NCBI GenBank assembly: GCA_020430865.1
Contig: JAGQIY010000708.1
Span: forward strand, 1 to 9,973
Reading direction: 5' to 3'
Origin: Myxococcales bacterium
GTDB taxonomy: Bacteria > Myxococcota > Polyangia > Polyangiales > Polyangiaceae
DNA: 9,973 nt
Numbering within the stretch: the stretch's first letter is position 1; every line of letters starts with the position of its first letter. Shown piece by piece: positions 1,374 to 7,528 of this stretch. The notes beneath the pieces are model-generated. The model saw only the letters and a program-made list of their open reading frames with translations, ran no database searches and had not been told where the DNA came from. A program made the position numbers and the translations under genes.

Positions 1374-3389
1374 CTAGCGGCGTCGTTCCCTGGCACGCCT
1401 GAAGCGTTCGCTCAAGAGCGAAAGTTCCTGCTCGAAGTCGCCCTGCGCTTGAGCCTGGTGGAGCTCGTCCACGACGTGCGCCGCTTCGCGCACCGCCTGG
1501 AGCTTCTCCAGCCGGCGCAGATTCGCCACCAGCTCGCCGCGGCATGGGTCCAGTTGATCGTGCTTTGGTGCCGCGAGTCGCTGACTGGCGTAGCCGCCGA
1601 GGGAGTCGGGAAGAGCCTCCAGGATTCGCCCAGGATCCACGCCGGTTCGCGTCGATGCGCCCTCCAGCGCCGTGTGCGTCTGCCCTACACTCTCCCACAC
1701 GTGACGCAATGCGACATAGCCGAGAGCCAGGTCGCCCTCTAGCAAGTTGGCCGCCTCCCAACTCACAGCGTCTCCCAGCAGAGAAGGGAAGTCGAGAAAT
1801 GCGCCAAAGATTTCCCGCTCGATCTCGTGGGCCTGGTTGCGGCTCTTCGCCCGTTCGGGGGGCTGCGGCGGCGCGGGCCCACGGGGGCGCTGCGAGAGCG
1901 GATCGAGGCCGCCCTGGCGTTCCTGGCGCGGCTCCTCGGCGCCTTCTCGTCGAGCGCGCGCGTAGGCTGCCTGCGGCGGCGCGCCGGACCGCTCGACCCC
2001 GACGCTGGCTTCCAGCGCTCGCAGCGTGGCCCCGTCCGCGATCCCCAAGCGCTCGGCGACCGTGTCCGCGTAGCTCTTGGCCATCGCCCGCACCGTCGGA
2101 TCGTCCTCCTCCTCGAGCAGCTGCTTGACGCGCTTGATCCGCTCCGCCTTGTCGAGGGCGCCGCTGACCTTCTCGTCGAGCGTGCTCTCGATCAGGTACT
2201 CCAGCATCGACTGGCTGGCGCCGACGATGCGTCGGATGGCCTCCGCGCCGCCTTGGCGAGCCAGATCGTCCGGGTCCACGCCTTCGGGCAGGCTAGCGAC
2301 CCGGACTACCAAGCCGACTTCTCGGGCAGGCCCACGGGAGGACTCCGTGGCGCGCCGGCCCGCGGAGTCTCCATCGAACAGCAACACGGCCTGATTGGTG
2401 TAGCGCCGTATTTCCTTGCCCTGCTCGGCGGTGAATGCGGTCCCGAGGGGCGCCACCACGTTGGTGACCCCACGCGCGTGCAGGCTCACGACGTCGAAGT
2501 TTCCTTCCACGAGGATACACTGGTCGCGCTCCCTGACTGCCTGTCTGGCTTGATATAGACCGAAGAGCACCTCGCGTTTACGGTAGATCGGGCTCTCGGG
2601 GCTGTTCAGGTACTTGGCCGGGGCGTCGCTGTTCCCGGTTCCGAGAGGAGACAGGCCCGCGCCGGCCAGTTGCTCTTCGCTCGGCTCGGGCAGCGCACGA
2701 CCGCTGAAGGCCACCACGCGGCCACGCAGGTCGAGTACGGCGAACATCAGCCGGTGCCGGAAGCGGTCGTAGTGCCCCGGGCCCGTCTTGCGGGGGACGA
2801 GCAGACCGACGCGCTCCGCGGGGTGGACGCTCGCGCCTTGATCGCGCAGCTGGCGCGCGAGGTTGTCCCAGCCGTAGGGCGCATAGCCCACGCGGAAGGC
2901 CCGCATGGCCTCGATGGCGTCCCCGCTCTGCTGATCCGGTTCGAGACCGCGCTTGCGGATCTCGTCACGCGCGAGCTCCGCCAGCGGGTGCTCCCTCAGC
3001 ATGCGCTCGTAGAACGCCGCCGCCAGGGCGCCCGCGTCGTACATTTCCTCGAGGCGACGCCGCTGCTCGGCAGCCTGGCGGCGGTCGCGGTCGTCGCCGG
3101 TCTCCACGACCTCGATACCCTCGTGCTCGGCGATGTGTCGAATCGCTTCAACGAACGAGAGTCCCTCGTGCTCCATCAAGAAGCGGATCGGATCTCCACT
3201 CACCCCACAACCGAAGCAATGATAGAAATTGCGTTCGTCGCTGACGTGGAAGCTGGGAGTTTTTTCCTTGTGAAAAGGACACAGGCCGATGTGGCTGCGC
3301 CCCCGGCGCTCGAGCTTCACGTACTCGCCGATGATGCGGATGGCGTTCATCCGGCTCTTGACGCGATCGACGGTCTCCTGGCTGATCAT
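1374..3389 (-). CDS. dnaG: DNA primase DnaG
   Basis: This primase makes the RNA primers for lagging-strand synthesis at the replication fork, working with the DnaB helicase. It has 671 residues, somewhat longer than the roughly 580-600 of many primases. The N-terminal zinc-binding domain has C37, H40, C58 and C61 (CPFH ... CFGC). The catalytic core contains KYLNSPESP at about 259-267. The TOPRIM acidic residues are in VEGNFDVV (E295) and LLFDGD (D339, D341). A low-complexity, Gln/Arg/Pro-rich linker (about 465-520) leads to a helical C-terminal domain (about 520-671) in the place of the helicase-binding domain. The usual EGYxDVV TOPRIM motif reads EGNFDVV here. The ATG at 3389 begins the typical primase N-terminus (MISQETVDRVKSR); its Shine-Dalgarno sequence is weak. 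It is divergent from the radical SAM gene and lies upstream of rpoD. Confidence 0.98.
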   Translation of the reverse strand: MISQETVDRVKSRMNAIRIIGEYVKLERRGRSHIGLCPFHKEKTPSFHVSDERNFYHCFGCGVSGDPIRFLMEHEGLSFVEAIRHIAEHEGIEVVETGDDRDRRQAAEQRRRLEEMYDAGALAAAFYERMLREHPLAELARDEIRKRGLEPDQQSGDAIEAMRAFRVGYAPYGWDNLARQLRDQGASVHPAERVGLLVPRKTGPGHYDRFRHRLMFAVLDLRGRVVAFSGRALPEPSEEQLAGAGLSPLGTGNSDAPAKYLNSPESPIYRKREVLFGLYQARQAVRERDQCILVEGNFDVVSLHARGVTNVVAPLGTAFTAEQGKEIRRYTNQAVLLFDGDSAGRRATESSRGPAREVGLVVRVASLPEGVDPDDLARQGGAEAIRRIVGASQSMLEYLIESTLDEKVSGALDKAERIKRVKQLLEEEDDPTVRAMAKSYADTVAERLGIADGATLRALEASVGVERSGAPPQAAYARARREGAEEPRQERQGGLDPLSQRPRGPAPPQPPERAKSRNQAHEIEREIFGAFLDFPSLLGDAVSWEAANLLEGDLALGYVALRHVWESVGQTHTALEGASTRTGVDPGRILEALPDSLGGYASQRLAAPKHDQLDPCRGELVANLRRLEKLQAVREAAHVVDELHQAQAQGDFEQELSLLSERFRRARERRR

Positions 3390-3416
3390 CGGCTGCTCGT
3401 CACAGGCCCTTCGAGC

Positions 3417-3449
3417 CCGGGTGTCTCGTTCATACTCTGCGGCACCCGG
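3417..3449. promoter_or_regulatory. Inverted repeat spanning the proposed dnaG -10 box
   Basis: The perfect 7-bp arms CCGGGTG (3417-3423) and CACCCGG (3443-3449) are centred on about 3433, directly over the proposed dnaG -10 element (3429-3434). That geometry suits an operator for a dimeric repressor. I do not recognise the motif as belonging to a known regulator, and GC-rich DNA gives such repeats by chance now and then. Confidence 0.3.
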
Positions 3450-3456
3450 CAGGCAA
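3429..3456 (-). promoter_or_regulatory. Candidate sigma-70 promoter for dnaG-rpoD
   Basis: On the minus strand TTGCCT (3456-3451) and TATGAA (3434-3429) are separated by 16 bp, each matching 4 of 6 consensus bases. The predicted transcript would start near 3422 and give a leader of about 33 nt before the dnaG ATG at 3389. It is the best promoter-like pair I see in this 126-bp divergent gap for the dnaG direction. It is predicted from sequence only. Confidence 0.4.
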
Positions 3457-3457
3457 C

Positions 3458-3482
3458 ACGCGCGGATCGAAGCACCGCGCGT
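3458..3482. promoter_or_regulatory. Perfect 8-bp inverted repeat between the two divergent promoters
   Basis: The arms ACGCGCGG (3458-3465) and CCGCGCGT (3475-3482) flank a 9-nt spacer. The repeat fills the gap between the proposed -35 boxes of dnaG (3451-3456) and the radical SAM gene (3482-3487). It could bind a regulator that acts on both promoters. The motif is all G/C apart from its outer A/T pair, so chance remains possible. Confidence 0.3.
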
Positions 3483-3509
3483 TGACTGTTTGTTTGTTCA
3501 GTATACACT
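3482..3509 (+). promoter_or_regulatory. Candidate sigma-70 promoter for the radical SAM gene, predicted leaderless
   Basis: TTGACT (3482-3487, 5 of 6 to consensus) and TACACT (3504-3509, 4 of 6) are separated by 16 bp in a locally AT-rich patch. A start site 7 nt past the -10 falls on the A of the ATG at 3516. The mRNA would then be leaderless, which fits the absence of a properly spaced Shine-Dalgarno sequence. A shifted -10 reading TATACA at 3502 would leave a spacer of only 14 bp and is less likely. Confidence 0.5.
3484..3503 (+). promoter_or_regulatory. LexA-like SOS box overlapping the radical SAM promoter
   Basis: The sequence GACTGTTTGTTTGTTCAGTA contains an ACTG-N10-CAGT dyad. It has CTGT-N8-TCAG where the enterobacterial SOS box has CTGT-N8-ACAG. 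Positions 3486-3502 also match 14 of 17 positions of the Myxococcus xanthus LexA motif as I recall it (CTRHAMRYBYGTTCAGS), including the whole GTTCAG half. The box covers the spacer between the -35 and -10 elements, where a bound repressor would block RNA polymerase. Binding by LexA is inferred. Confidence 0.5.
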
Positions 3510-3515
3510 CCAGGC

Positions 3516-4565
3516 ATGCGGCCGCTGCCGGTTCACAACCCACCGAACCCGTTTCAGGGCCAGGAGGTGGAGTACCTGCTGGAAGACGGCGTCGAAGCTC
3601 CGACCCAGGGCTTTCAGCTGTACCAGGACACCTCGAAGACGATCCTCAGCAAGAACCAGAGCCCCGACGTGGGCATGCGCTGGAGCGTGAACCCCTACCG
3701 GGGCTGCTACCACGGTTGCGCGTACTGCTACGCGCGTCCCAGCCACCAGTACCTGGGCTTCGGCGCAGGAAGTGACTTCGAGCGGCGGGTCGTGTTCAAG
3801 CCCCGCGCCAGCGACCTGCTGCGAGCCGCGTTCGAGGCGAAGAGCTGGCGAGGCGAGGCGGTGCTGTTCAGCGGCAACACCGACTGCTACCAGCCCATCG
3901 AAGCCAGCTTGCGCCTCACCCAGGCCTGTCTGCGGGTCTGCGGGGAGTATCGCAATCCATTCCACATCATCACGAAGGCGCCCTTGATCGAGCGCGACAT
4001 CGAACTGCTCGTCGACCTCGCGAAAGAGACGCCCTGTGGTGTGACGATCAGCGTGCCGTTCTGGGACCCGACCGTGGCTCGCTGCATCGAACCTGGAGCG
4101 GCCACGCCCCAGCGGCGAATTCGAACCATCCGCCGTCTCGCCGAGGCTGGGCTCGATGTCAGCGTCAACGTCGCTCCGCTGATCCCTGGCCTCGCAGATC
4201 GAGATCTCGTACGCATCCTCGAAGCCTGTCGTGCAGCGGGCGCGAGGCGTGCTGGGATGATCCTCGTGCGTTTGCCGGCGGAGGTGAAGCAGGTGTTCGT
4301 CGAGCGACTGGAACAGGCTCTCCCCGAGCGCGTGGGCAAGGTCCTGGGCCGCATTCGGGAGGCGCGCGGCGGACAGCTCAATGACTCGCGCTTCGGTGCT
4401 CGCATGCGCGGCGAAGGGCACTATGCCGAGATGATCTGGAACCTGTTCCGCTCCACTTGCGCTCGACTCGGGTTCGAGCAAGGCATCGAGGACCCGATGA
4501 CCGAGGCCACCACGACCTTTCGCCGTCCGACCGACCCCGGGGGACAGCTGCGTTTGTTCGTCTGA
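3516..4565 (+). CDS. PA0069-family radical SAM protein (SplB-related, COG1533) with C-terminal clamp-type motif
   Basis: This 349-residue enzyme belongs to the radical SAM superfamily, near spore photoproduct lyase. Its substrate is not established. The [4Fe-4S] cluster motif is C64-x3-C68-x2-C71, inside NPYRGCYHGCAYCYARPSH (about 59-77), which is typical of the family. Further family landmarks are NTDCYQP (121-127), ITKAPLIERD (152-161), PLIPGL (221-226) and GGQLNDSRFGARMRGEG (285-301). The N-terminal NPPNPF also fits the family, which supports the ATG at 3516. The last residues are QLRLFV; Q344 to F348 match the QLxLF sliding-clamp-binding pattern. The protein is cysteine-rich. It is divergent from dnaG and has a LexA-like box in its promoter, so I infer a role in inducible DNA repair. 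Family assignment is firm; function is not. Confidence 0.93.
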   Translation: MRPLPVHNPPNPFQGQEVEYLLEDGVEAPTQGFQLYQDTSKTILSKNQSPDVGMRWSVNPYRGCYHGCAYCYARPSHQYLGFGAGSDFERRVVFKPRASDLLRAAFEAKSWRGEAVLFSGNTDCYQPIEASLRLTQACLRVCGEYRNPFHIITKAPLIERDIELLVDLAKETPCGVTISVPFWDPTVARCIEPGAATPQRRIRTIRRLAEAGLDVSVNVAPLIPGLADRDLVRILEACRAAGARRAGMILVRLPAEVKQVFVERLEQALPERVGKVLGRIREARGGQLNDSRFGARMRGEGHYAEMIWNLFRSTCARLGFEQGIEDPMTEATTTFRRPTDPGGQLRLFV

Positions 4566-4566
4566 G

Positions 4567-4589
4567 CGAGCGTGGCGCACGACCGCTCG
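4567..4589 (+). terminator. Weak stem-loop after the radical SAM gene
   Basis: CGAGCG (4567-4572) and CGCTCG (4584-4589) form a 6-bp stem around an 11-nt loop, 2 nt past the stop codon. No U-run follows. It could mark the 3' end of the transcript, but it is a poor intrinsic terminator. Confidence 0.25.
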
Positions 4590-4694
4590 AGTTGCCCTTC
4601 TGGTTTGGGGGGGGAGAGGACAGGTGCGGCGAGGTGTCGCGCGGCGTGAGTCTCTGGCGTGCGTGCGCGCCCGTCGGCTCTAAATGGCGAGTAG

Positions 4695-6410
<1,716 letters not shown>

Positions 6411-7048: not shown

Positions 7049-7528
7049 TCAGTCGTCTTCGTCTTCGTTGCGGCGCTCGGCGGCACGCCGCGAGGCTTCG
7101 CTATAGACCAGAAAGCGCTGATCGAGCACCAGCCGATCGTCGACGAAGAGTCGCACGTTCCACTCGCCGAGCGGGTCCCCCGGGGCCAGCTCGAGCTGGG
7201 TCTCGAAGCGCTGGCTGCCCTTGGGGGCGACGCCGCTGCCCAGCTCCGTCACCCGGCTCGAGTGCGTCGGTCGCTTTCCGCGCGGAGCTGGACGATCCCA
7301 CTCCCAGCGTATCGGGACGTCTCGAGTCAGGACGCTCTGGAAGTCCACCCGCAGACCCTGCGTCTGCTTGCGCCGGTCGATCTCGAAGGGCACCTCGTTG
7401 CGCTCCTGCACCTGGCCGCCAAAGAACACGCCGAACACCGCGCGCTCCACTAGCTCATCCTTCGGCTCGTCCTCGGGGCAGCCAGTCAACAGCAGCCCCA
7501 GGAACACGAGCAGGCCTCGGCGCTTCAC
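7049..7528 (-). CDS. Small predicted lipoprotein, function unknown
   Basis: I do not recognise a family with certainty. The product has 159 residues with a short basic start (MKRRG), a hydrophobic core, and the lipobox LTGC with C17 as the lipidated cysteine. P18, E19 and D20 follow, and there is no Asp at +2, so outer-membrane sorting would be expected. The body looks like a beta-sandwich: WEWDRP (75-80), then GEWNVRLFVDDRLVLDQRFLV (121-141), a W-x-V-x-L/F-V-x-D pattern like that of Ig-like or DUF2914-type modules. The tail is acidic (NEDEDD). The GTG start overlaps the ksgA stop as GTGA. GAGAGG sits 6 nt upstream, so the two genes are probably translationally coupled. Confidence 0.8.
   Translation of the reverse strand: MKRRGLLVFLGLLLTGCPEDEPKDELVERAVFGVFFGGQVQERNEVPFEIDRRKQTQGLRVDFQSVLTRDVPIRWEWDRPAPRGKRPTHSSRVTELGSGVAPKGSQRFETQLELAPGDPLGEWNVRLFVDDRLVLDQRFLVYSEASRRAAERRNEDEDD

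Follow-up and report, generated by a model that had tools for sequence, protein, structure and literature searches.

A PA0069-family radical SAM protein of a Myxococcales bacterium with a conserved clamp-type C-terminal tail and a LexA-like box in its predicted promoter

The DNA analyzed here (the window) comprises all 9,973 nucleotides of contig JAGQIY010000708.1 from a Myxococcales bacterium of the Polyangiaceae (assembly GCA_020430865.1) and carries, at positions 3516..4565 of the plus strand (stop codon included), a gene for a radical S-adenosylmethionine (SAM) protein of the PA0069 family with 349 amino acids. Judged from sequence and predicted structure, the gene probably encodes a LexA-controlled, damage-induced and clamp-docked enzyme with the fold of spore photoproduct lyase (SPL), which would act on damaged DNA by an inferred chemistry; we assign a rough probability of 0.6 to this reading. 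LexA would repress the gene through a box inside its promoter and, upon DNA damage, would be cleaved, so that the promoter opens and the enzyme is made. The flexible C-terminal tail, which ends in QLRLF, would then allow the enzyme to dock on the beta clamp, in its peptide pocket, and to reach DNA that is replicating or stalled. There, a 5'-deoxyadenosyl radical would act on the damaged base. What gives the finding its weight is the comparison with relatives of the gene and not the single window.

Family, fold and C-terminal tail of the protein

The assignment to the PA0069 family, already made in an initial annotation of the sequence by means of the radical SAM motif, was confirmed by profile searches. 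The protein matched the NF033668 profile with 387 bits (curated cut-off 360) over model positions 8-348 of 348 and PF04055 with 67.4 bits (cut-off 29.5), and the CxxxCxxC cluster motif reads CYHGCAYC (3705..3728, plus strand, codons 64-71), the residues C64, C68 and C71 being invariant in 65 sequences. NF033668 is a model of a hypothetical equivalog without assigned function within the SplB-like proteins (COG1533). The closest named relative, from a Polyangiaceae metagenome-assembled genome (MAG), shows 85% identity, and the homolog at locus L001, from a Polyangia MAG, 84%. Among solved folds, that of SPL (PDB 4fhc and relatives) comes nearest, at 13% identity, and the predicted structure represents an SPL-like radical SAM fold whose match stops at residue 326. 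When solved structures were searched by sequence, NifB and SkfB came first (best E-value 2.3e-6 with a profile) and SPL appeared only at an E-value of about 0.1.

The protein ends in PTDPGGQLRLFV, its last residues being QLRLF followed by a single V. The predicted clamp-binding motif QLRLF (4545..4559, plus strand, codons 344-348) is located beyond the SPL fold and is preceded by a linker (4476..4544, plus strand, codons 321-343). In the predicted structure the mean local confidence (predicted local distance difference test, pLDDT) is 61 for residues 321-330, 80 for residues 331-340 and 58 for the tail residues 341-349. A review from 2024 lists two variants of the clamp consensus, Q-phi-x-[L/M]-[F/L] as well as Q-phi-x-[L/M]-x-[F/L], with QLxLF and QLxLxF as the best forms (PMC11139829). 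QLRLF fits this consensus, as the initial annotation had stated.

For a strict test, the published consensus was searched within the last 20 residues of the homologs. It was found in 118 of the 120 listed homologs, the window protein being counted among them, and in 49 of 79 complete genome loci; when the pattern was relaxed to Q..L plus any hydrophobic residue directly after it, 72 of the 79 fitted. Of the further Myxococcota loci, 24 among the 30 with the highest scores had the strict consensus, as did three of five alphaproteobacterial and two of four actinobacterial or Gemmatimonadota loci; among 30 gammaproteobacterial loci 24 tails fitted and the remaining six were near-fits. Altogether, the 163 distinct proteins of the loci comprise 96 with the five-residue form, six with the six-residue form, 40 with a looser form and 21 with none, and after reduction to 60% non-redundancy (56 proteins) these numbers were 36, two, 14 and four, respectively.

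Q344 and L347 are conserved in at least 90% of a 65-member alignment and are the sole invariant residues beyond G301 in 12 diverse members; the conservation which the initial annotation had asked to be checked by alignment thus holds. A position table was built from 49 representatives with Q, [LM] and [FLWYI] as anchors, and the scores at these three positions, being circular, were excluded as evidence. Position 2, which was left free, is occupied by L or M in 36 cases. The residues preceding the motif are less conserved than the motif itself, with the exception of FRRP-like ones.

A chance origin of the tail was rejected on the basis of controls. The consensus occurred in 1-4% of shuffled tails, in three of 1860 internal 20-mers and in one of 574 other mechanically called open reading frames (ORFs) of the loci. 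Among 20 paralog places hand-picked from the lower-scoring matches, none of 19 distant SplB-like paralogs carried it; the twentieth, which does, is a 47%-identical fragment and probably a true family member. In a separate set, none of four distant SplB-like proteins had the motif. Taken together, the tail of the window protein presumably binds the clamp.

The promoter and LexA-type boxes in relatives

In the region 2800-5200 a single sigma-70-like site was detected (0.2 expected), consisting of the -35-like hexamer TTGACT (3482..3487, plus strand) and the -10-like hexamer TACACT (3504..3509, plus strand). The LexA-like box ACTGTTTGTTTGTTCAGT (3485..3502, plus strand) lies inside this site, between -35 and -10, as proposed in the initial annotation, and ends 13 bases 5' of the ATG at 3516. 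It is the only match to ACTG-N10-CAGT in the window (0.13 expected). Since six bases separate the -10-like hexamer from the ATG, both here and at L001, the transcript may be leaderless at both loci. Comparison of the window with L001, the box of which was aligned with it, revealed that the stretch TTGACTG.TTG..TGTTCAGTATACACT is conserved, whereas the flank has diverged.

The LexA box of M. xanthus was published as CTRHAMRYBYGTTCAGS (PMC9705874), and the window box agrees with 14 of the 16 core positions of this consensus. From a pafBC box of Myxococcus, described there as weakly bound by LexA, it differs at one of 16 bases. In a sample of 55 genes, composed of 25 hand-picked myxobacterial or deltaproteobacterial loci from L001-L080 and of L136-L165, at least 14 of the 16 core positions were matched within 150 bases upstream of 14 genes, compared with 40 of 3300 random windows drawn from these loci and with 16 of 2200 upstream regions after shuffling. 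Boxes 19-31 bases upstream of the radical SAM gene were also found at L004, L005, L021 and L033.

The window box shares its type with the lexA genes of the lineage. Of 19 related genomes, 13 have GTTCAG in the lexA upstream region, according to a scan whose weights were derived from the radical SAM boxes themselves, and at lexA of the closest genome (L085) as well as of L083, L084 and L091 visual inspection places it between a -35 of the TTGAC type and a -10. When the closest genome was scanned with a pattern, 15 sites were obtained, lexA and the radical SAM gene included, and 10 in a reversed-pattern control, which is no clear enrichment. In more distant groups, GTTC-N7-GTTC is located within 136 bases upstream of all five alphaproteobacterial homologs, which were selected from plasmid matches, with no other copy in those 4-kb loci, and GAAC-N4-GTTC upstream of two of three Rv2578c-type actinobacterial genes. 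We take these two patterns to be the LexA boxes of alphaproteobacteria and actinobacteria, respectively. Cirz in 2006 reportedly placed PA0069 in the LexA regulon of P. aeruginosa. The recurrence of such boxes suggests that LexA binds the promoter in the window.

Alternative explanations and opposing observations

Several observations weigh against a damage-induced, clamp-docked repair enzyme and bear on three other explanations. The first concerns the reaction. Clamp docking and SOS control may both be real, with the enzyme modifying a base, a nucleotide or a replisome protein and thereby enabling a translesion polymerase, without any reversal of a lesion; we regard this as the most serious competitor, albeit an unlikely one. 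It would agree with the lack of a match to the SPL family models TIGR04070 and TIGR03886, neither of which hits the window protein at E-values up to 0.001, so that membership in SPL proper was rejected. The hydrogen-donor cysteine of the solved SPL is C140, and C124 of the window protein (codon at 3885-3887) is a candidate counterpart. This cysteine is not universal: the motif around it reads TDCYQP in 85 members, TDPYQP in 22 and TDAYQP in seven, one member having no such motif, and Pro or Ala thus replaces Cys124 in 29 of the 114 members read. These variants represent a split within the PA0069 family close to the presumed active site.

The same explanation, like the main reading, is favored by a dinB-like ORF which lies directly upstream on the same strand in six Bacteroidota loci among 80, one of these ORFs being Pfam-tested (IMS, IMS_C) and five being assigned by clustering. 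Neighborhood clustering revealed no partner common to many lineages. In favor of the main reading, QLDLF is present in the DinB protein of the closest genome; of 20 DinB matches 14 proteins were read, and seven of these have a canonical clamp motif beyond the domain start.

Secondly, the tail may pack on the enzyme itself, form a dimer contact or act as a turnover signal instead of binding the clamp. The motif is located at or close to the extreme C-terminus, and part of the linker before it, the FRRP-like residues, is also somewhat conserved. Moreover, 15 of 20 Nitrospirota loci (L227-L246) form a group that has kept a different tail, of the LFP[DGN]F type and lacking the Q. On the other hand, the conserved residues are those of the clamp consensus while the x position varies, the five- and six-residue forms occupy the identical place, and the tail has a low pLDDT in the monomer model, so that we consider such a role improbable. 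The LFP[DGN]F-type tails, which occur within L227-L243, may represent another docking peptide; ten Nitrospirota genomes with this tail were searched for the DinB C-terminal domain, and none gave a match.

The third explanation, just as improbable as the second, is that the box arose by chance or belongs to the divergent dnaG-rpoD operon, whose dnaG starts 95 bases away, and not to the radical SAM gene; at least one ACTG-N10-CAGT occurred in 24 of 200 dinucleotide shuffles of the window, which makes the box alone weak evidence, and two of the 16 core positions as well as the seventeenth deviate from the consensus, but the box lies between a -35 and a -10 facing the radical SAM gene, the island of promoter and box is conserved in L001 within a diverged flank, and L004, L005, L021 and L033 have boxes with no dnaG-like ORF there by clustering.

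Further opposing observations concern LexA control in general. Upstream regions of 41 of the 55 Myxococcota-type genes remained below 14 of 16 consensus positions, GTTCAG was missing from six of the 19 lexA upstream regions, recA boxes were irregular, and CTG-N10-CAG was found in four of 30 gammaproteobacterial loci. According to PMC9705874, LexA binds the Myxococcus pafBC box, the nearest tested relative of the window box, only weakly and does not bind the recN box.

The initial proposal of a damage-induced repair protein brought to the clamp can therefore be maintained in part: the tail is conserved and LexA-type boxes recur, with the exceptions of the 15 Nitrospirota loci and the 41 upstream regions given above, while DNA as the substrate and repair as the outcome are what we infer from the fold and from the company of the gene.

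Gene neighborhood and relation to SplB-like genes

The genes surrounding the radical SAM gene look ordinary. The divergent gene dnaG, encoding primase (1374..3389, minus strand), has a 126-base intergenic region (3390-3515) in common with it, and the LexA-like box therein could also touch the dnaG-rpoD operon. On the minus strand dnaG is accompanied by the start of rpoD; atpC, rsmA and a gene for a DUF58 protein were identified by Pfam and atpD by eye. As in the window, dnaG-like and atpD-like ORFs flank the radical SAM gene in L001, L002 and L006. These three loci also contain ORFs similar to the one at 7049-7528, which is lipoprotein-like by eye and has no Pfam match.

Among phage records, 12 distant matches with at most 31.5% identity were found. 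Copies with internal stop codons in two gammaproteobacterial genomes (G279 and G360) are apparently decayed, and a Haloarcula plasmid (L177) carries an adjoining pair of divergent radical SAM genes.

Within the PA0069 family the window protein is a near-full-length member, and most of the members read share the tail. It resembles SPL in its fold and differs from it in overall sequence, in the lacking match to the SPL models and in the tail beyond the matched fold. The sister family Rv2578c is set apart by its model NF038135, which the window protein matches with 221.6 bits, below the cut-off of 430; three actinobacterial members end in GQEPLF, EQLRLL and TQLTLL.

According to the literature, SplB-like genes (COG1533) are under SOS control in Alpha- and Beta-proteobacteria (PMC3323433) and in Bacteroidetes (PMC8565304) and are present in ImuB-C operons (PMC3765255). 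The SOS networks with splB in the first two of these sources have LexA-type sites upstream, mostly as comparative-genomics predictions; their LexA motifs differ from that of the window, and the word "clamp" occurs in neither of the two texts. A paper joining the PA0069 family to the clamp was not found in the open-access literature, which was surveyed in part.

It is conceivable, at somewhat less than even odds, that PA0069 and its sister Rv2578c form an ancient SOS-induced, clamp-riding group of radical SAM enzymes which repairs or modifies DNA bases at the fork. To our knowledge no other radical SAM enzymes are docked on the clamp, so that these would be the first, and they would have a DNA substrate outside spores. 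Although the SOS networks of several phyla include SplB-like genes, no role of these genes outside spores is known. If the conserved tail indeed docks on the clamp, the enzyme would be positioned at DNA under replication, and the tail offers a short and cheap route to testing the role of a widespread gene.
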